The notes under the pieces: generated by a model
Told to the model about the DNA's origin: nothing
The model's database searches: none
What the model saw: the letters and a program-made list of their open reading frames with translations, nothing else
Position numbers and translations under genes: made by a program
Source of the DNA: Bactericera cockerelli
Taxonomy: Eukaryota; Arthropoda; Insecta; Hemiptera; Triozidae
Direction: 5' to 3'
Length of the DNA stretch: 64,000 bases
Assembly: GCA_024516035.1 (NCBI GenBank)
Contig: CM044961.1
Location: 11,839,229 to 11,903,228, forward strand
Shown here: in pieces, positions 9,572 through 64,000 of the stretch
Position numbering within the stretch: position 1 is the first letter of the stretch
Layout of the letters: the number at the start of each line of letters is the position of its first letter

Positions 9572-12500
9572 CTGTGAGAAACGAGAAAATAATATTATTT
9601 CAATTTTATTGTACTAAAGGATACATATTGTATGTGTTCAAACTTACATGCTAATTAACAAATTAAATTAAATCTAAGTTATATATTAAAATAGGTACAC
9701 TATGTAGGAACAAAGAGCATTTAAATAATTTGAGGACTAGAAAAGAAAAATTAAAAATATATAAACACAAATAAAAACAGAAAATTGCCTGTGGCAATCT
9801 CTTCCACCCAACCCTTTGTATGTATTTTGTACTTTAAAGAAAGTTTATGACGAAATATATACTAGTGTACCCTGTGTAGCTGGTGTACATGTATACATTG
9901 TTTACCTACATAAAAAAACAAAATGGCCTAAGTAAGAAAACAAAATGGCGGAGTAGGGGTCTCCAGTGCTGTGTTATCTAATACTTACTCAGGTGAATAT
10001 TGAGAAGAAGAAAAACAATTCACTGCCAATTATGAACAAATACTATTTATCATGAATGGTGATCAAAATTTTCAATATTTTTTTTTATACAAAAAACCAA
10101 CACAATACTTCCGATTTCTAATATTGGAAATTTCTCGGAAGTAAAATGGCGGAGGAGGGGTTTCCAGACTCTCCAGTGCTGTGTTATCTATACTCACTCA
10201 GGTGAATATCGATAAGAAGGAAAGCAAAATGGCGGAGTAGGGCGCGGTTTCCTGTGATGTGTCATCTAGTACTTACCCAGGTGAAAATCAACATGGTATC
10301 CGTTGTTGTGTTACCTAATATTTTCCCACATGCATATCAAAAATAGTCTCCAGTGCGCCGTTATCTAATACCTACCCAAGTGAATATCGAGAAGAAGGAA
10401 AACAAAATGGCGGAGTAGGGGTCCCCTGTGCTGGCAGATTCTGGCACATCTTTCTCAGTGGTGTCGCTCCACTGGTTGGCGAGGTAGCAGAAACTGATGA
10501 AGTAGAGGACTGCCCACAGACCTGGCAATTTTATAAATACAGTGGGTCACTTTCAGATGAACTTTTTCATAGACCTGGCAATTTTATACATAAAATGGGT
10601 CACTTTCAAATGAACTTTCCTTTATAGCAAATGACTGATTCTGATGTAAATACACAAGAAGAAGTCATTTCAACCATGAAAATCACGAAAAACGAATTCC
10701 AGATTCGTGGTTATTTCGTAAGCAATGGTGAGACTCTTCCAGTGGTATAGTCTCTGGAAGAAGTTTTTTTTTGTACCTACAGTAAATAATAAAATTCTTA
10801 ATTCAATTTTATTATTACCTGAATTCTTTTTTGTACAAGTATTAATCTAAGTGTCGGATTTTTATTTTACGCTATCTATTTCGATCTGACTGAATCCAGT
10901 GGGTGGATACGTATTCAAACTAATCAGGGCTGTTTACATTCGGTTAAAATTTAATAATATATGCTACAATGTTCAATTTTTATCCATCTGAGCAAATTAT
11001 AGGACTTTTCCAATCTTTAATAACCCAAATCTTAATTTTGCCTATAAATCCGCCACTGGTCGCTGCTAACATTAAGCAGCTACTCAGTTTCCCTCCACCG
11101 CTGAGCACACCACTCACCGGAGAACCCCATGTCTCCCACGACGAAGTGTTTGCGGCTCTTGGCGGACGACATCTGCTCGAAGAAGTACTCGCCCGCCACG
11201 AAGCCCGCCGCCCCCAGGAGCCCGAAGAAGCCAATGGTGGAGCCGTACATGCAGGCAGAGGCGTCCTTGTGGAACACGCAGATCTCCTTCTTGGCGTCCT
11301 CGGGGTCCTGGTACCAGCTGCCCGAGGAGATGCACCAGTAGACGATCACGCCGAACAGCTGAGGAGGACAACAGGAAACTTTTAAAAATCATTTTTAATT
11401 TTAGTTATATATATAATAATAAATTTTAAGAAAATTTGAAGCGATTGGATATGCGACCCCTCTGTAGAAACAACTATCCAGAAAAGTGTGATCCTGCAAA
11501 CATGTCATCTTGTGCGGAAATTTTTAAACAATTAATTTTAACTACTAGTTATAGTTTTAGTGAGATAGACTGAAATGTCTCCTCACTATTAACTTAGAAG
11601 CAAAAAAAAAAAATGTATCTACTCGAAATAATAATAATATCGCCTTATTTATACTGCCCGATTAGGAGGACTATTAAAGTCCCATTATTCCAGCAGTAAG
11701 CCCAAGACATATTATTATGTGGTAAAAATCCCAAATGGGAGGATAAACTTGTATGTCCCGGCTGGGTTTCGAAACCTACGACCTCTGGATTCACAGAGTG
11801 CCGCCTTTACCACTGAGCTACCGGGACAGACCGGTAGCTCAGTGCCGGAATCCCACTGGGTGCAACATTCGACAAAATGTTTCGCAACGTTTCATGCTCC
11901 ACTCTTTCTTTGGAATCAAATGATATCCAACCCACTGACTTCGCACCGCTTTGCAGTATTCCCATTTAAAATTCAAAACAGAACGTTGGGCAGCGTTTTG
12001 CAATTAAATGTTGCACTCCGTTGGATTTACACAGCCTCAATAAATACAAAACTCTTCGTGCTAAAAAAAAAGTTAAAACAATTCAAAACAAACTTGCCTA
12101 CAAATTTTGACTTACAAGAAATAGGTATGTGTATTTTTATGAAACCTGATACCACAGTTATTTTCTTTTAGGCCACGTTTTGAATACAGGAAATTAATAA
12201 TAATAATAATAAAAAAAGGTAATTAATATAACTGTAGAGTGTAGACGATATTATACTTCTAATAAGTAGGTTCTTTATCAAGCACTCTAGTGTGTGGGCA
12301 TTAGTGTGTGGTCAAAATTTCAAATAAATGAGAAAAAAATATGCATTACGTGGATTCGTATCTCACGATATGAAAAAAATATGTATGGGCTGGATTCGAA
12401 TCCTTCCCAAGATAGATCACACCACCAAGCTTACGCTCTATCACTCGTCCGATAGGACTAGACCCGTTTTTGGAAGGCCTATCTGAGGAAGGTACATCTC

Positions 12501-18957: not shown

Positions 18958-49001
<30,044 letters not shown>

Positions 49002-50876: not shown

Positions 50877-50976
50877 NNNNNNNNNNNNNNNNNNNNNNNN
50901 NNNNNNNNNNNNNNNNNNNNNNNNNNNNNNNNNNNNNNNNNNNNNNNNNNNNNNNNNNNNNNNNNNNNNNNNNNNN
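50877..50976. other. assembly gap, 100 N
   Basis: Exactly 100 consecutive N, the usual placeholder for a gap of unknown size. Confidence 0.99.
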
Positions 50977-54334: not shown

Positions 54335-54463
54335 GATGCTATGGAGTGCAGGACACTGCCAGTATTTCCTCTACGGTGTCCTCCTGTTCAACAGAGCCCT
54401 GGTTCTGTGAGTCATGTCGTGCAGGCATTGCCGAGCCCTCGTGTGAACTGTGTCCCAACTTTG
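54335..54463 (+). CDS. PHF14: PHF14 exon a (end of PHD1, zinc knuckle)
   Basis: CYGVQDTASISSTVSSCSTE then PWFCESCRAGIAEPSCELCP: the last zinc ligands of PHD1 (CxxC) and the knuckle cysteines. Acceptor ctcctcag, donor GTGAGC. Enters in phase 1, so an upstream exon must exist. Confidence 0.92.
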
Positions 54464-57400
54464 GTGAGCTTTTCTTTCTTCATTTATCTTTAAATCAAAA
54501 GATGTTGGTAAAATATACCCTCACTGATAAAATAATTTTTTTTTAGAAATTAAACAATCTGAAACCAAAAGTGTGTTGCAATACATCATAGTTAAAGGTT
54601 ATACAAAAAAACTTCTATATCAGATATAGCTACCTATGATCAACAGATACCACAAAATTATGATATTAAAAACACTATTGAGCATATTGTGTTATCATCA
54701 CATTGTTTACCCAAGTTGGAATTTTGCCTATTTGTGCCTAATTGACTGAAAACAGAGAGATCTAAGTTTTAACTAAATTATTGAAATATATTAATGTGGG
54801 CACTTTCCTTTTTATACAGTAAAATACTATGTTTATCCTGCAAGAATGAGACTAAAGAGTTCCTTTACTCTCACAGTCTGAATCTAAATTTTATATAGAG
54901 ATTTCATATTTGGAATTACATACATTACATACAATGTAAATTTTAAGACTGCACAAACTTATGCCCTTTTGAAAACTATTCATGTCCCTTGTTATCATTT
55001 ATTACAAATGTAAATAATGAAAAATTTATTACAAATACTTGTACAGTCTTAGTATTAATAAATTGTACACTTGGGGCATTGTCCCGTTAACTTTTAAAAA
55101 TAAAAATAAATAAAATAAAATTACATTACTTAGAAGCCCACATTTTTTGTATTAGCTTAGGGAAAGTGTTTGCTTTGTAAACTATATGTATATTGATTCT
55201 AAATAAAACAATTTATCTTATCTATCTTATCTTACTGAACATCCAGGAGGCATCTTCAAGGAGACTGACGTGGGCAAGTGGGTGCACCTGGTGTGCGCCC
55301 TCTACATCCCGGGGGTGGCCTTCGGAGAGGTGGACCGGCTGAGCAATGTGACCCTGTTTGAGATGCCCTACGCCCGGTGGGGGGCCAAGTGCTGCGCCCT
55401 CTGCCAAGATGAGAGTTTTGCCCGCACGGGTGAGTTGCACTTATTCCTAACTTCTTTAAAAAATATAGATGATTTTTTTTTATCATTCAGAACTTATAAG
55501 TGATATTCATTAAGAAGTTAGCAATATGATATGATATTAAAAACACTATTGAGCATATTGTGTTATCATCACATTGTTTACCCAAGTTGGAAATTAGCCT
55601 ATTTGTGCCTAATTGACTGAAAACCGTGAGATCTAAGTTTTAATTAGAATATTGAAATATATTTCAAGTTAGCAATATTTCATAAATTCTGTTCACGTTA
55701 TACTTGTTCTCTACACTATTTTATTATATAATATTATACAGTAGAACCTGGATTTAACCCATTGCGTACCGTGCCTTTTTAACCTGATAACCCCAGGAGA
55801 CCGGGCTCAATTCAATCTATTTCAGCTGTCTATCACAAATGATACACAGGTTTCCTGTGATATTTAATAAGTTATATATACGTAGGAGTCCATGTCTATC
55901 ACATGTGATACCCAAATAATGAGTCCGCTTAGCATGCAAATTTTGTTATACTGTCTATCACATTTGATAACCAGCCTCTAAGATAAGGATAACCCCGTCT
56001 ATCTTATCTGATAACCAGGTATCCAGAAGACATACAATGTCTATCATATATGATACCCATGGTACGAAATGGGTTAAGAGAATTTTCAAGTAATGGGTTA
56101 AGAGAATATTCTTTTTCATTTTTATTTTATATATTGTTTTTTTTTTCTTCATTTTTTCACTGTTAATATTATTATTTATATGTACATAATGTCCTTTTGT
56201 ATCTAATAAAGAATTATATAATAATAATAATAATAATAAGTAATTAGATTTTTTTTGTATATCCAGGTTTCTGTTCTAATGAGGTTATTTTCCCTTATAC
56301 AGAGGTCGACTTGAATTTTTTTCTCTTACATTCAGGTTTCTCTTATATCCAATTCTACATTGTAACCTAGTCTATTCTTCCTCAGGTGTTTGCATCCAGT
56401 GTGACGCGGGAATGTGCCGCACCTACTTCCACGTAACTTGTGCTCAGAGGGAAGGACTGCTCAGTGAAGCAACATCCGAGGAAGTGGACCAGGCTGATCC
56501 TTTCTATGCTCACTGCAAGCTTCATGCAGACAAGGTAACACCATACAACTATCTTCTAGCATGGATAAGAACCCAAATTATTGATCATTCGGGCTGTCTC
56601 TCTTAGACTCAGAGGTACTAGAAAAACTGTAAAGAGTCTACCTTATGAAGATGGAGCTGGATTACCAGTGATCTACTGGTAATATGTAAACCATTATTTC
56701 TTCTTCATAGTGATGTCAGTCTGTTGATTAAATATAAATTATATATTTCTTATTAAAAAATATCAAATTTTCTTCGTTTCATCATTATTAAAATTGTAAG
56801 GAATAGTTATTCCATGACTATAAAGGAATATTATGTGACCACATAATAATAATAATAATAATAATACTCTGAGGGTTAGCTGGAATAATTTGACCATTAA
56901 CCTTGCCTGTTCACTATTCACTAAAGAGTATTATAGCCAGCTTTGATGGCACCTTGAATGCAGTTGTCACTGAAGTTATACAACGTTCAACAAAGTTAGG
57001 TGACCATTCAAATTCGAACCTCCCGAGGTGCTGGATTTTCCCGGTTTTACTCAGACTGGGTGAGTTTATTTTTGAGTAGCTGGTTTGTGAATTTTTTTTA
57101 AATTCAAATACCTACACTTGAAGTTATAGATTATAACAATCAAGCAATAACTGGTATGATCATTCATTCACTCATTCACACATGTATTCATTTAAATAAA
57201 TCCCCCGTCGTGATATGACCATGCAGTTGAAAGCAAGGTTAAACCCAAATTAAAAATAGTATTATTATTATTACTGGACTGTCCACAATTTGGGTGGAAG
57301 AGATTGCCACAGGCAATAAACCCGCCCTTTAGGTAGGACATTATTGTTATTTTCTTTTTTACTTATTTATTTTGTCATTTGTTTGTTGTTTTTTTTTTTT

Positions 57401-59023
57401 CTTAATTTTATACTGTTACCATTGTACTTTGTCCTCCTAATAAAGCTTAAAAAAAATCGCCTCCCAGGTCCTGATCAAGAAGCGCAAGCGCAACTTCCTC
57501 TCGATGGTGACGCGCAGTGCGCTAATGCGTCGACAGCGCAGCCTAGAGGCGCAGGACAGAGACAAGACGTACGTGCGCATCCAGAGGAAGCTAGCCAAGT
57601 ACAAGCTCAAGTATGTGGATATGAAGACTCTGCGGAACCCTCCCTGGGGTGAGTACAAGCTCAAGTATGTGGACATGAAGACTCTGCGGAACCCTCCCTG
57701 GGGTGAGTACAAGCTCAAGTATGTGGACATGAAGAGTCTGCGGAACCCTCCCTGGGGTGAGTACAAGCTCAAGTATGTGGACATGAAGACTCTGCGGAAC
57801 CCTCCCTGGGGTGAGTACAAGCTCAAGTATGTGGATATGAAGACTCTGCGGAACCCGCCCTGGGGTGAGTACAAGCTCAAGTATGTGGATATGAAGACTC
57901 TGCGGAACCCTCCCTGGGGTGAGTACAAGCTCAAGTATGTGGATATGAAGACTCTGCGGAACCCGCCCTGGGGTGAGTACAAGCTCAAGTATGTGGATAT
58001 GAAGAGCCTGCGGAACCCGCCCTGGGGTGAGTACAAGCTCAAGTATGTGGATATGAAGAGCCTGCGGAACCCGCCCTGGGGTGAGTACAAGCTCAAGTAT
58101 GTGGACATGAAGAGTCTGCGGAACCCTCCCTGGGGTAAGTACAAGCTCAAGTATGTGGATATGAAGAGCCTGAGGAACCCGCCCTGGGGTAAGTACAAGC
58201 TCAAGTATGTGGATATGAAGACTGCGGAACCCACCCTGGGGTGAGTACAAGCTCAAGTATGTGGATATGAAGACTCTGAGGAACCCTCCCTGGGGTGAGT
58301 ACAAGCTCAAGTATGTGGATATGAAGAGCCTGAGGAACCCGCCCTGGGGTGAGTACAAGCTCAAGTATGTGGATATGAAGAGCCTGAGGAACCCGCCCTG
58401 GGGTGAGTACAAGCTCAAGTATGTGGATATGAAGAGCCTGAGGAACCCGCCCTGGGGTAAGTACAAGCTCAAGTATGTGGATATGAAGACTCTGCGGAAC
58501 CCGCCCTGGGGTGAGTACAAGCTCAAGTATGTGGATATGAAGAGCCTGCGGAACCCGCCCTGGGGTGAGTATTACTTCCGAGAAATTTCTAATATTAGAA
58601 ATCGGAAGTATTGTGTTCGTTTTTGTAAAAAAAAAAAAAATATTTTTGCTCGGATTTCAATTTTTTTCATAATTATTTCTGGACGTTTCATAACCTCCTG
58701 AGCAAATTTAGTTTTGTGTCGGTCCGTCGGTCTGTTAAAAGTATTCCTTGTAACGCGCAAATCTCAAAAGTCAAAAAAAAACATGTATCTCCTTGTATCT
58801 CCAAAACGACTGAACCGATTTTCTTCAAATTTGTTTTATATGGTAGAATGTCGTTTTTCTTACATTCTAGATTCTACAAAAAATTCTGTACCGGCAAGTC
58901 GTGGTCCTTATTTTTAAACCCCTCCCTCTCTCCTCAACAGTTCCCACTCAGAAGCTGGCGCGGCCACTCACCTCCTCAGCCTCGCTCTGCCGCGCCCTCC
59001 TCCACAAGACAAAGCTTATGGAG
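54335..59023 (+). CDS. PHF14: PHF14 homologue (PHD-finger chromatin reader), partial: 5' exons not seen, 3' end beyond window
   Basis: PHF14 is a nuclear multi-PHD protein that binds histone H3 tails through a PHD–knuckle–extended-PHD module. Five exons are visible: 54335-54463 (end of PHD1 and start of knuckle), 55247-55429 and 56386-56534 (extended PHD), 57468-57648 (basic helical linker) and 58941-59023 (VPTQKLARPLTSSAS, collinear with VPREKLPRPLTSSAS of vertebrates). All phases agree using the first donor at 57649. The N-terminal acidic region and the first half of PHD1 should precede 54335 but are absent, and the later PHD fingers must lie beyond 64000. The 57468 exon is followed by a 54-bp tandem array that repeats its donor 18 times. 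Confidence 0.92.
54685..55670. repeat. about 125-bp direct duplication in two PHF14 introns
   Basis: gatattaaaaacactattga … gttatcatcacattgtttac … gcctaattgactgaaaac occurs at about 54660-54785 and 55532-55660, on either side of exon b. Confidence 0.75.
55247..55429 (+). CDS. PHF14: PHF14 exon b (extended PHD first part)
   Basis: GGIFKETDVGKWVHLVCALY then IPGVAFGEVDRLSNVTLFEM and KCCALCQDESFARTG. WVHLVCALY is the diagnostic extended-PHD segment. Donor GTGAGT, phase 1. Confidence 0.95.
55754..56077. mobile_element. TTAA-flanked MITE (piggyBac-type), copy 3
   Basis: TTAACCCATTGCGTACC and its near complement GGTACGAAATGGGTTAA, TTAA at both ends. Inside are five copies of a short palindromic motif of the type gtctatcacatgtgatacc. 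It lies in PHF14 intron b. Confidence 0.85.
56386..56534 (+). CDS. PHF14: PHF14 exon c (extended PHD second part)
   Basis: VCIQCDAGMCRTYFHVTCAQ then REGLLSEATSEEVDQADPFY and AHCKLHADK: the final ligands CxxC…HxxC…CxxxH. Acceptor cctcag, donor GTAACA, phase 0. Confidence 0.95.
56820..56945 (+). repeat. SINE family B, partial copy 4
   Basis: tgaccacataataataataa, ctctgagggttagctgg and attaaccttgcctg … ctaaagagtatta; head missing. Confidence 0.6.
56943..57265 (+). repeat. 5S-rRNA-derived SINE with full body
   Basis: agctttgatggcaccttgaa, ttgtcactgaagttatacaa (5S-like), then actcagactgggtgagttta, cccccgtcgtgatatgacca and gttgaaagcaaggttaaacc. The last parts match the 62930 copy. Confidence 0.78.
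57288..57455 (+). repeat. SINE/LINE-tail family D, copy 4
   Basis: ttgggtggaagagattgcca, caggcaataaacccgccctt and tactttgtcctcctaataaa with A tail; nearly the same as the 34500 copy. Confidence 0.7.
57468..57648 (+). CDS. PHF14: PHF14 exon d (basic helical linker), first unit of the tandem array at its end
   Basis: VLIKKRKRNFLSMVTRSALM then RRQRSLEAQDRDKTYVRIQR and KLAKYKLKYVDMKTLRNPPW. Phase 1 at donor GTGAGT (57649) joins exon e to read W-VPTQKL. A family D repeat ends about 15 bases before its acceptor (ctcccag). Confidence 0.9.
57600..58570 (+). repeat. 54-bp tandem array of the PHF14 exon d 5' splice site, 18 units
   Basis: Unit = 18 codons, YKLKYVDMK(T/S)LRNPPWG(E/K), each ending TGGG|GT(G/A)AGT. 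Donor positions: 57649, 57703, 57757, 57811, 57865, 57919, 57973, 58027, 58081, 58135, 58189, 58241, 58295, 58349, 58403, 58457, 58511, 58565. Fifteen are GTGAGT and three GTAAGT. Unit 12 is 52 bp and shifts the frame, so read-through stops at 58242-58244. Mutations are mostly shared silent changes, which suggests recent or homogenised expansion. Confidence 0.95.
58941..59023 (+). CDS. PHF14: PHF14 exon e
   Basis: After cctcaacag: PTQKLARPLTSSASLCRALL then HKTKLME, donor GTAAGA, phase 0. Strong collinearity with the family right after the helical linker confirms the exon d splice. Confidence 0.92.
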
Positions 59024-59074
59024 GTAAGACCTATGTTCTGTAATTCCGGTTTTGTCCAATCTATTCCACCCAAT

Positions 59075-59931: not shown

Positions 59932-61581
59932 CTAAAAATCTTCACAGAACTTATTCAGTAAAGTAGGTATGATGTACCCTAGCCTTCTTTGACCGTACTG
60001 GATGGTATATACATGTGGCCTATTGAATTTTTGTTGCCTGAGTCCATATTGATGTTCTGTGAGCTGCCTAAAGTTTTTATTAAAAAAATTACTGTATAAA
60101 TTTACAAATATTGAAAGTTCTTCTGGTGTAAAACATCGAATATTATTATTTTGAAACAGAAGTTTTTTAATTTTGGTTTGTTGACTATCTAGAGGTTTCA
60201 AAACATACTGAGGTGCATATGTGTATAATGTGACACCATACCTCAGAAGTGAGTCAACCAAAGAAAAATATATTGACACTTTAGTACTCATTGGTAAGTT
60301 GCCTGCATTTATTACAGTTAGTTGGTATTTTAGAATTCTAAGTTTAGAGCACAAATTGTAAACATGTCTTTTCATTTTGAATTCGCTGTCTATAATTACC
60401 CCTAAATATTTTGCCTCGTTTGTATATTCTATTTGGTGACAGGAACAGATGGTTGTGTAGGATTTCGTCTCCAGGCATTTGCGGCTGTGACATAAGATTT
60501 TAAAATTATTCATGTTGGTTTTTTTACTCTTATAGCCCATCACTAATGCTTCGGTTTTCTTTTCATTCAGGTATATGTTATTATTATAAAGGTATTTCTG
60601 TAAATTAATGAAATCTACCTGAGCATTAGCGACGGCATTTTCTACTTCTTTGTGAATTGACACGATACAGCTGTCGTCGGCAAACATTTTGAGGTTTGTC
60701 TTCCTGTGTATGTATTTAACGTCGTAGGTGTATAAATTGTACCACGTAGGGGAATTTACCCCCCCCTGACAAAGGCCTTGATTCACTGGCAGCTCGTCGC
60801 TTACTATTTTTCCAATTCTGGTCACTTGCTTTCTATTCTTAAAGTACTCCGCAAATATCGGGTGCCATATTCCCACTTGTTTGAGTTTCCTGAGGAAGGC
60901 TGCGTGATCTATTGTGTCGAAAGCGAGGCTCAGGTCCAGCAGTATGACCACCACACACTTCCTTTGATCAAGGGCGGTATTAACCTCTTCTGAAAACTCT
61001 TGAAGTAATGATATTGTACTTTTTTCACTCTGAAAACCATGTTGAAATTCCGGAATTATATGATTGGTGTCTAGGTATTTTTTTGTTTGTATGTTAATGA
61101 ATTTTTCTAATACTTTCTCTATAATTGGTAATGAACCTACCGGTCTGTAGTTTCCTAAATCATCGGACTTTCCTTTTTTATGCAGCGGTGTTATACATGA
61201 AATTTTAAGTTCTTGTGGCATTACAGAGTGTTTAAGCATCAAATTTATCATCTTTGTTATTAAGGGAGTAAATAATATCGAGTTATCAATAATATTTTCA
61301 CTCTTAATTCCATCGAACCCTTGACCCCTTTTCTTCATATTTTTTAGAATTTTTTTAACGTCTGTCTCTGTTGCGTTCCTTAGGTACATACTTGTAGTAG
61401 TATTATGGTACTCGTGTTCGATCATTTGGACATCTAGGATAGGGCCATTATTTTTAGTTTTAAGTTTTGTTATTTGATCGATAAAATTTGTATTAAACCT
61501 GTTTGCCAATTCTTTTAAGTTTTGAGTTTGAAATTGCCGTTTCAATTTTATTTCATTCTTTATTAATTTATTAATTTCCAT
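59932..61581 (-). pseudogene. LINE ORF2, reverse transcriptase part
   Basis: 549 codons. RT motifs in order: CITPLHKKGKSDDLGNYRPV, LLDLSLAFDTIDHAAF (first catalytic Asp), NQGLCQGGVNSPTWYNLY and the catalytic box MFADDS, then the thumb and a C-terminal region. The endonuclease frame ends 19 bases inside its start, so the two halves of ORF2 are separated by a frameshift. Confidence 0.9.
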
Positions 61582-62783
61582 GTTTTCAACATGTCCCCTT
61601 TAGCTCCTTCAAATAGCTTGTATAGATAGATTCTTTTTTCTTTTTTTATTATATTGTTGGTAACATTTCTTTGTTTTTTATATTCCTCGTGTAGACTCCA
61701 ATTATTTTTATTGTTCCGCCATTTTTTTAATAACATGTTTTTCTTTTTTATTTCGTTTTTTACCCTGTTAGTAAGCCAGGGAATCTCGTATAGACATTGT
61801 TTTTTATTAATTTTTTTCATGGATGTATCGTAAATGTTGGTAAAAAAATTGAGAATTTTCTTATATAATTCTACAGGATCTTCTATCTTTTGGAGCTCAG
61901 TCCAGTCAACTTCCTGAATTTTTTTCATGACCGTCTTATTATCAATAATATCTATTGTATTTTCTCTGTCTATTAGTACTGTTTCCCGGATCTTTTTACC
62001 TATTCTGATAGCTGTAAAATAGTGATCGGCTAATTTATCGAGAATCACTGATGATTTTGTAGAAAAATGCCTGGGGTTTAATCTGACGTTAATGTGATCG
62101 ATACATGTACTTGTTATTTTACCATCCAAAATTTCTTCTCTTGTAGGTTTCGAGATTGATGTTGTTATGGCATTGTTATAAAGTATGTTGAGGTATGTGG
62201 AATTTTTATTTGTTTTTTTCAGCGTACAGATATTCAAGTCCCCGATCATAATAATGTTTTCATCTTTTTTGATAGCATTTTGTAGCCAGAAATTTAGATC
62301 CGTAAGAAAAGTCTCTAATTTTTTTTTGGGTGATCTATAAATTGCTATGAAAACAAATTTAAGTTTTGATATTAGGTGAGTTACCCTGATGTTCAAGTTT
62401 TCTGCCTCATCGAAGTTGTAATCCAAATTTTCGATAGTTAAATGATTTCTAAAGAATATTATCAAGCCACCTCCTCTTTGCATCATTCTACATTTACATA
62501 TTTGGGTAAAATTCCTCAACTTATACGATAACGCTTCCTCATCATTTACGTTAACTTCCGTTAGAATCAACATGTCTAGTATAGGGAGAAGATCTTTTAT
62601 CTTAATGCAGAGTAGTTCCCAATTTAGTTTAAGACTTCTTATGTTAATATGAAGCACAGATAATAATTCTTGGTTTAAATTATTTTGCCATTCTACCAAA
62701 TTTTGTGATAATTCGCATTCTGATTGGATATTCCTAATTTGGTTCATTAATAATATATTATGATTTCTATGCATTTTAAACAT
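61563..62783 (-). pseudogene. LINE ORF2, AP-endonuclease part
   Basis: 406 codons. Endonuclease landmarks: LSVLHINIRSLKLNWELL, LTEVNVNDEE, RGGGLIIFFRNHL, IYRSPKK, MIGDLNI (catalytic Asp/Asn) and IDHINV (Asp-His). It stops at 61563-61565 right after KTWKLIN, where the RT frame should continue. Confidence 0.88.
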
Positions 62784-64000
62784 TGGGTTGAAATCCTATT
62801 TTTCTACGCATTTTGTAGTATTACATTTTACCAATATCCTCCATACATAAAATTTTTATTGGGTTGGAACCAACTGTTTTTCTTAGCAAAATCTTACCAT
62901 CTTTTTTTTTTTTTTTTTTTAAGTGGGGTTTAACGTCGCTTTCAACTGCCATGGTCATATCACGACGGGGGTTTTACCCTCCATTCGCAGGAAACTCACA
63001 AACCTGCTACTCACATTGACCTCACCCAGCCTGAGTGGGGCCGGGAAAAGCCAGCGTCACGAGAATTAGAATTTTTTACCCACAGATATTCGTATCTCTT
63101 TTCTTTTTTAATTTTACTTGCTTCGAACAATATTCTTTTGTAGTATGTACACAGGGCCTCATTAATATAAATATCGGTCGAATCCTGGTTAACCGTATTC
63201 CCCATTTTAGAATACACTTTTTCCTTTTTTATTTTCGCTAGTGCTGTGTTTCTATCGCTGTGCGATTTGAAGGTTGCTAAAATTGTTGTTTTTTCTTCTC
63301 CGTTTTCCGCCACTTTAGTGGTCATTTCCGTTTTGAATGGTATTGCCTCTGATTGTAGTCCTGCTTTTTCAAAAATATTTTTTATAACTGTGTCAGGGTT
63401 AATGTTTTTGTTTTTTTATGCCTGAGATTTCAAATTTATTATTATATTCCTTTTGAGCCGTCTCATTTATTTGAATTTCCATATTTTTCAATCTTGTACG
63501 CAATTCTTTATTTTCGCCTTCGCTCTTGTCTAGCCTTTTCTCCATTAGTATAATTTTTTGTTCTAAAGCTTTCACTGTTTTTGTTGCGTCCTCCACTATT
63601 TGACCATGGAAGTTAAGATTCTCTTCGAAATCATCCAATTTTTTGCTAACCTTTTTTTCCGAAGCATCCATAACCCTTGTAATTTTGTTCTCGAACTCAT
63701 TAAATCTTCTATCAAACATTACCATTAACTGATTGACTGCTGGGTCGAGTGGTTCACCGCGCCCCTCATCACCTCCCTGCCCTGCCGCCTGACCTGCACC
63801 TGCTGTCCCGTTCTCATTGAAACCATTGTTTCTACACACTGTACATCTCCATGCTCCTTGTCTTTTGGGCCCCATAGATCTCCATGAGCTGGCAGTTACA
63901 GTTGTACATTCAAAGTGGTACATCCCTTTGCAGATTCCACAAGTCGCATAGTCACCATCCCCCGGCAGCGCTGCATTACAGTTTCCTCCGCATTTAGACA
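62784..64000 (-). pseudogene. LINE ORF1 with N-terminal PHD-like finger, broken by a frameshift and a SINE
   Basis: From the right edge: a zinc-finger pattern (KCGGNC … YATCGIC … YHFEC … WRCTVC), linker, coiled coil (63400-63720, heptad-like L/I/K/E) and, after a frameshift at about 63410, FKSHSDRNTALAKIKKEKVY … RILFEASKIKKEKRYEYLWV, a basic C-terminal domain like those of CR1-type ORF1 proteins. The N-terminus is outside the window. Confidence 0.78.
62900..63068 (-). repeat. 5S-type SINE (5'-truncated) inserted in LINE ORF1
   Basis: Minus strand: cgtgacgctggcttttcccg, actcaggctgggtgaggtca, gtttcctgcgaatggagggt, aaacccccgtcgtgatatga, then an A tail of about 20. It interrupts the ORF1 frame between YLWVKN and KILLRK. 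Confidence 0.85.

Follow-up and report, generated by a model that had tools for sequence, protein, structure and literature searches.

The window, a stretch of 64,000 nucleotides of the Bactericera cockerelli genome, contains an exon whose 3′ end is repeated in tandem together with its 5′ splice donor, raising the question of which of the 18 resulting donors would be used and how such an array comes about. The reading preferred here, with a probability of about 0.7, is that this is a minisatellite of 18 copies, each unit combining the final ~49 bases of PHF14 exon d with the 5′ splice donor; the first donor is predicted to be used, and the other 17 units to be spliced out with the intron.

Anatomy of the PHF14 exon d array

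By homology, the gene hosting the array is PHF14. The joined exons beginning at 54335, 55247, 56386, 57468 and 58941 match the PHF14 structure 7d8a in the PDB (E 2e-72, residues 1-168 of 242), and the best three of 1145 relatives, among them those of the psyllids Diaphorina citri and Cacopsylla melanoneura, show 93% identity across the query. The features of the locus are as follows.

50877..50976, no strand: 100-N scaffold join; the window copy of PHF14 begins exactly at the contig edge here, and its 5′ exons lie outside the window (sequence)
54335..54463, + strand: PHF14 exon a, PHD region (homology, exon joining)
55247..55429, + strand: PHF14 exon b (homology, exon joining)
56386..56534, + strand: PHF14 exon c, with one donor in the window copy and a 46-bp array in the upstream copy (copy comparison)
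57468..57648, + strand: PHF14 exon d with donor 1 in use, 181 nt, including unit 1 (psyllid orthologues read ..RNPPWVPTQKL..)
57600..58569, + strand: array of 18 units of exon d 3′ end plus donor, 17 of 54 bp and one of 52 bp (TRF, exact unit listing)
57649..57654, + strand: donor 1, GTGAGT, with its GT at 57649-57650; predicted main donor (on the strength of orthologues and sibling arrays)
58194..58245, + strand: unit 12, 52 bp, two bases short, which closes the frame (exact listing, translation)
58242..58244, + strand: TGA met by read-through in the exon d frame (translation)
58565..58570, + strand: donor 18, GTGAGT, with its GT at 58565-58566, adjoining single-copy intron (exact listing)
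58574..58609, no strand: hairpin element, a dispersed long inverted repeat directly behind donor 18, with a second copy at 10107-10142 (sequence)
58941..59024, + strand: PHF14 exon e, VPTQKLARPL.. (homology, exon joining)

TRF calls the array at 57598-58571 as 18.1 copies of 54 bp with 96% matches, and its donors are all intact GTRAGT (GTGAGT in 15 of 18, GTAAGT in 3 of 18). The unit length is a multiple of three, and the exon d frame is open from 57468 across donors 1-11 and through units 1-11. The initial annotation had named the gene as PHF14, described the unit as the end of exon d plus its donor with 18 donors in all, equated 54 bp with 18 codons so that donors 1-11 are in frame, and placed the closure of the frame in unit 12 at 58242-58244; each of these points is borne out by the homology matches, the exact listing and the translation. 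The unit, as a PHF14 exon end joined to its donor, is of the same make as the exon-intron boundary VNTR of the CBS type. AGTA is found at both outer edges of the array (exon side ..CCAAGTAC.., intron side ..GTGAGTAT..), which leaves a 4-base ambiguity in the unit phase and offers a microhomology through which the first duplication could have arisen.

The exact unit core has 43 matches in the 565.0-Mb genome (1032 contigs), 18 in the window and 25 in a copy of the gene ~155 kb upstream, and all 43 lie at PHF14, unlike what a dispersed satellite or mobile element would show. RNA structure is rejected as an explanation, with 57560-57780 folding no better than shuffles (z 0.5) and the strong fold near unit 18 taking in the dispersed hairpin element. 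A LINE-like element with a weak match to an endonuclease besides its reverse transcriptase (PF00078) occupies 59932-62795 on the minus strand, in the intron after exon e.

All three of the best relatives carry a single unit, reading ..YVDMKSLRNPPWVPTQKL.. or ..YVEMKGLRNPPWVPTQKL.., and donor 1 joined to 58941 would thus yield the conserved protein; splicing from donor 1 restores the orthologue sequence ..NPPWVPTQKL... The initial annotation had also suggested, with comparison with PHF14 of related species as one check, that the array could act as a protein-length switch, in which alternative use of donors 1-11 would give PHF14 with 0-10 extra 18-residue repeats. The 18-codon unit speaks for such a switch, as do the in-frame donors, 1-11 in the window copy and 1-10 in the upstream copy, and five of eight distinct unit substitutions are synonymous where 21% is expected (p = 0.013), a hint of coding constraint that is too little for a switch claim. 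Against it, the comparison finds no near-exact exon d repeat in 239 fetched homologues, 112 of them with the PPW unit end and the protein of the species itself not among them. A protein search with the repeat, a repetitive query run against database proteins of ~142-451 aa only, yields no match at E <= 1e-3, and a search with the two-unit isoform yields no near-identical protein among 120 listed of 176 matches. In addition, any unit has a 1 in 3 chance of triplet length. The sole repeated protein in the 239 is a PHF14 prediction from the moth Plutella xylostella (P0004), in which 29 aa are tandemly repeated close to the exon b/c region.

A second PHF14 copy with different donor numbers

The upstream copy is 5′-complete and lies on the same strand as the window copy. 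The contig behind the 100-N join duplicates sequence ~155 kb upstream, and the window copy aligns piecewise to ~26 kb of the upstream copy, with mostly 93-99% identity outside the arrays and lower identity in some pieces. Exons a-e differ between the copies at 0, 7, 3, 3 and 7 sites, respectively, and as the proteins are identical these 20 base differences are synonymous. The window copy is probably an uncollapsed allele of the upstream copy, a reading favoured because the window copy starts at the 100-N join and a second copy of the PHF14 5′ exons is absent among 40 candidates scored of 5363; the uneven divergence, with exon e differing at 7 of 84 sites, counts against it.

In the exon d array of the upstream copy, 10 in-frame units are followed by units of 113 bp that also contain upstream exon sequence and intron sequence. 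Next comes an LTR-like insertion of ~4 kb at C7:11741352-11745325, which has a 98% similar counterpart farther downstream, and after it ~10 more units. The exon d donors number 18 in the window copy versus 16 + 10 in the upstream copy, and all 44 found across the three arrays are GTRAGT, with one additional unit having lost its donor by deletion. Within the 113-bp units (L010 5589-6098), the exon part is immediately followed by ~41 nt of AT-rich sequence with GT at its start and AG at its end, which may be a mini-intron. Exon c has 19 donors in the upstream copy versus one in the window copy, the array consisting of 18.4 identical 46-bp units made up of the last 40 exon bases and the donor AAG/GTAACA (L010 3222-4069, C7:11738222-11739069). 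Inspection by eye against the single-donor copy reveals no microhomology at this duplication. Exon k, which ends in ..KLMGW and lies beyond the window (C7:11916108-11916954, L014), has in the window copy eight copies of a ~115-bp unit with donor, the last with an altered donor, and the upstream copy has one.

The duplicate contigs at the PHF14 locus and the 100% identity of the exon c array over 18.4 copies would fit arrays inflated or invented by long-read assembly. Such an artefact is nevertheless highly improbable, as unit variants are common to both PHF14 copies, the ~4-kb LTR-like element interrupts one array, and array units at unrelated genes are diverged (90-97%).

Splice-junction arrays in neighboring sequence and genome-wide

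The array is one of many at splice signals in the genome, which the earlier reading, made from the window alone, could not show. In 318 kb of the contig, TRF and flank inspection identify arrays at eight exon-intron junctions, six at donors and two at acceptors, of which three belong to PHF14, two to ribonucleotide reductase (RNR), one to seryl-tRNA synthetase (SerRS), and two to transporter exons. The SerRS exon (match to 4l87, E 4e-25) carries four copies of a 124-bp unit, followed by a frame, VRYGQTKK, that we take to be the next SerRS exon. Arrays of the RNR large subunit are found at exon a (30 bp in 23 plus 22 copies; match to 3hnc, 3e-32) and exon b (56 bp in 11.7 copies; match to PF02867, 3.5e-20), and the frames downstream of them, SCFLL and GILQYDMW, are presumably the next RNR exons. 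RNR exon a occurs twice on one scaffold (C7:11811835 and C7:12172909, 361 kb apart), both times 100% identical to the query peptide. The SerRS exon is present intact once in the genome, together with three truncated copies in its own array, and no second intact copy is found in the genome search (4/4 candidates scored); the SerRS mRNA would therefore have to pass via the four-donor array. The acceptor arrays comprise 29 copies of a 75-bp unit at an SV2-like exon and 29 copies of a 47-bp unit at an MFS exon, and the two exons possibly belong to one gene. A further array of 46 copies of a 50-bp unit, with mostly MAG/GTRAGT donors, is without homology support.

The frames of the six donor arrays bear on the protein-length switch, as the sibling arrays do not look made for translation. 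Unit lengths are multiples of three in only two (54 and 30), and in four (PHF14 c, PHF14 k, SerRS and RNR a) translation beyond donor 1 is halted by a stop codon before the first extra unit ends. The frame stays open in the exon d array of PHF14 and over the initial units of RNR b, where the 56-bp unit shifts the frame. Together with the homologue comparison, these four stopped arrays and four non-triplet units make the switch unlikely as an account of the exon d array, and the suggestion is not supported.

After removal of TRF rows with a period outside 20-250, with under 3.5 copies, or with overlaps, 26 rows are kept for the 318 kb, which by our own count represent 19 distinct array loci, 8 of the 19 being homology-supported junctions. 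Binomial tests with n = 21 or 22 and k = 6 to 8 give p values of 4e-9 to 9e-4 for the junction arrays if 100-300 junctions are assumed in the 318 kb, and of 4e-9 to 0.01 over all settings with 100-500 junctions, to be read with the 318 kb being no random sample and homology tests being run only on arrays that look like junctions. A donor match of at least 8/9 is found in 5 of 25 arrays (4.0% expected, p 0.003) and a match of 7/9 in 13 of 25 (21% expected, p 7e-4), a moderate generic donor excess; the donor-array claim is carried by the homology-supported junctions and the genome counts.

The genome counts set triplets of a word, spaced 27-59 bp apart, against the same pattern read backwards. 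The word CAGGTGAGT gives 1285+1209 = 2494 triplets versus 16+24 = 40 backwards, and CAGGTAAGT gives 228+384 = 612 versus 7+0 = 7. The shorter donor words GGTAAGT and GGTGAGT give 3431+3803 = 7234 versus 327+302 = 629 and 7085+7764 = 14849 versus 1252+1051 = 2303, respectively, and the control AGTGATG 1381+1081 = 2462 versus 1146+999 = 2145. The acceptor TTTCAGG, a single 7-base word, shows little excess (234+458 = 692 versus 265+307 = 572). As single words outside arrays in the 318 kb, the donor words are not notably commoner than their reverses (GGTAAGT 51 versus 41, GGTGAGT 41 versus 46).

Since each array gives many matches, triplet counts overstate the number of arrays. The first 100 listed CAGGTAAGT places (C1 to 45.5 Mb) represent 9 arrays, extrapolating to ~55-110, and the first 100 listed CAGGTGAGT places (C1 to 15.7 Mb) represent 6 arrays, extrapolating to ~150-215, where some of the listed arrays may be copies of one another. 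Counted as arrays over the first ~5 Mb of C1, the 7-base words on their own give no distinction between donors and the control (GGTGAGT 8 arrays, GGTAAGT 5, control AGTGATG ~7). With the 9-base words, there is a clear genome-wide excess of donor-bearing arrays.

Predicted first-donor use and a proposed route of donor array growth

First-donor use, a prediction from genomic sequence, is probable because four of the six donor arrays are stopped just past donor 1 and the SerRS exon is without a second intact copy; for most of the genes concerned, no later donor would give a correct product. A tandem duplication across a donor would be self-healing, as exon and donor survive complete in the first copy and later copies turn intronic, so that donor arrays could grow nearly without cost, and duplications within exons would be purged by selection. 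Acceptor duplications would be more harmful, as the upstream acceptor copy comes first and would add sequence to the mRNA, and the weak acceptor excess fits this proposal. Low-level use of donors 2-11 would insert in-frame 18-residue repeats into PHF14; such a leak is possible and would be harmless to the frame, with no function indicated. Counting against first-donor use, published work on competing donors often finds the intron-proximal one favoured, a preference that would pick donor 18 and break the reading frame, and counting against the proposal more generally, two acceptor arrays do exist, one with a 47-bp unit.

An array of donors could also be useful in itself, if a run of many U1 sites improves exon definition where the acceptor is poor, as at exon d (AATAAAGCTTAAAAAAAATCGCCTCCCAG), or represses a cryptic poly(A) signal within the preceding intron. 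The exon d acceptor sits directly behind AATAAA and an A-run, and the uniform GTRAGT of the 44 exon d donors agrees with such a role. Against it stand the single-donor versions of exons c and k in the other PHF14 copy and the donor windows, whose conservation does not consistently exceed that of the other unit positions (rank 15/54, 2/30, 15/56 and 32/50), and the role is improbable. Strong donor conservation inside arrays as a sign of function is thus not found, as expected if the donors are passengers. Of 31 donor changes in the 50-bp array, 26 conform to the consensus, a figure in which inherited changes are counted many times and which could reflect inheritance of a few changes.

Self-healing alone leaves unexplained why donor arrays have a higher per-base density than purely intronic arrays, and some added mutability at exon ends or donors appears to be required. 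We suggest, with some doubt, that 5′ splice sites themselves might seed tandem amplification via a donor-specific process, e.g., transcription- or U1-coupled breakage at exon ends, by which probably hundreds of donors would have become minisatellites, with essential genes such as SerRS being correctly spliced from the first donor.

The anatomy of a single such locus is known from human CBS, where Lievers is said to have described in 2001 a VNTR at the exon 13-intron 13 boundary along with alternative splicing. By its name, c.1444_1467+7(16_21), this 31-bp VNTR has a unit of 24 exon and 7 intron bases in 16-21 copies, and single-base differences between units are described (PMC2630376). It resembles the PHF14 array in the account given there in having an exon end plus donor as unit in multiple copies, and differs in that 31 bp is not a triplet length and that one locus in one gene is concerned, whereas here there are many loci and the first 11 donors of exon d are in frame. 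The same source describes CBS 844ins68 as a tandem duplication at an intron-exon junction with two competing splice sites, the added copy being spliced away to leave a normal mRNA; unlike the PHF14 feature, it is a single 68-bp duplication and no array, and a title cited there speaks of 3′ splice site selection (PMC2630376). In work on intron gain, a tandem duplication over an intron-exon boundary similarly carries splice signals along, but the case concerns one duplication at an intron 1/exon 2 boundary with a new intron reported, whereas the present case is one of donor arrays known from genomic sequence. The intron-gain model of duplication of an exonic AGGT segment (PMC4974935) does not fit exon d, as the unit spans the native donor GGG/GTGAGT. 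A splicing role has been proposed for minisatellites of C. elegans, which are linked to alternative splicing, although the motifs are intronic and the word donor is absent from the main text of that report (PMC4039745).

Among the reports listed by a limited open-licence literature search, none describes donor minisatellites as a class spread over a genome, and a genome-wide, donor-biased class of splice-junction minisatellites appears to be new. Spliceosome choice among identical 5′ splice sites has been studied mostly with engineered constructs. Endogenous genes with 4 to 43 near-identical donors in a row and varied unit length and frame would reveal the rule of choice in ordinary RNA-seq and, if donor seeding is true, would constitute a natural experiment on choice among equal sites. 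Should further words confirm the bias towards donors over acceptors, it would point to a so far unrecognised route by which splice junctions influence a genome's mutation spectrum and the growth of its introns.

Two further tandem repeats in the window adjoin apparent splice sites of a neighboring gene, which we take to be RBBP6-like. An array of 21.8 copies of a 30-bp unit (43716-44354) begins a few bases inside the intron, directly after an apparent donor of this gene, and a 167-bp duplication in two tandem copies (39097-39436) spans what looks like an acceptor and the start of an exon in that gene.
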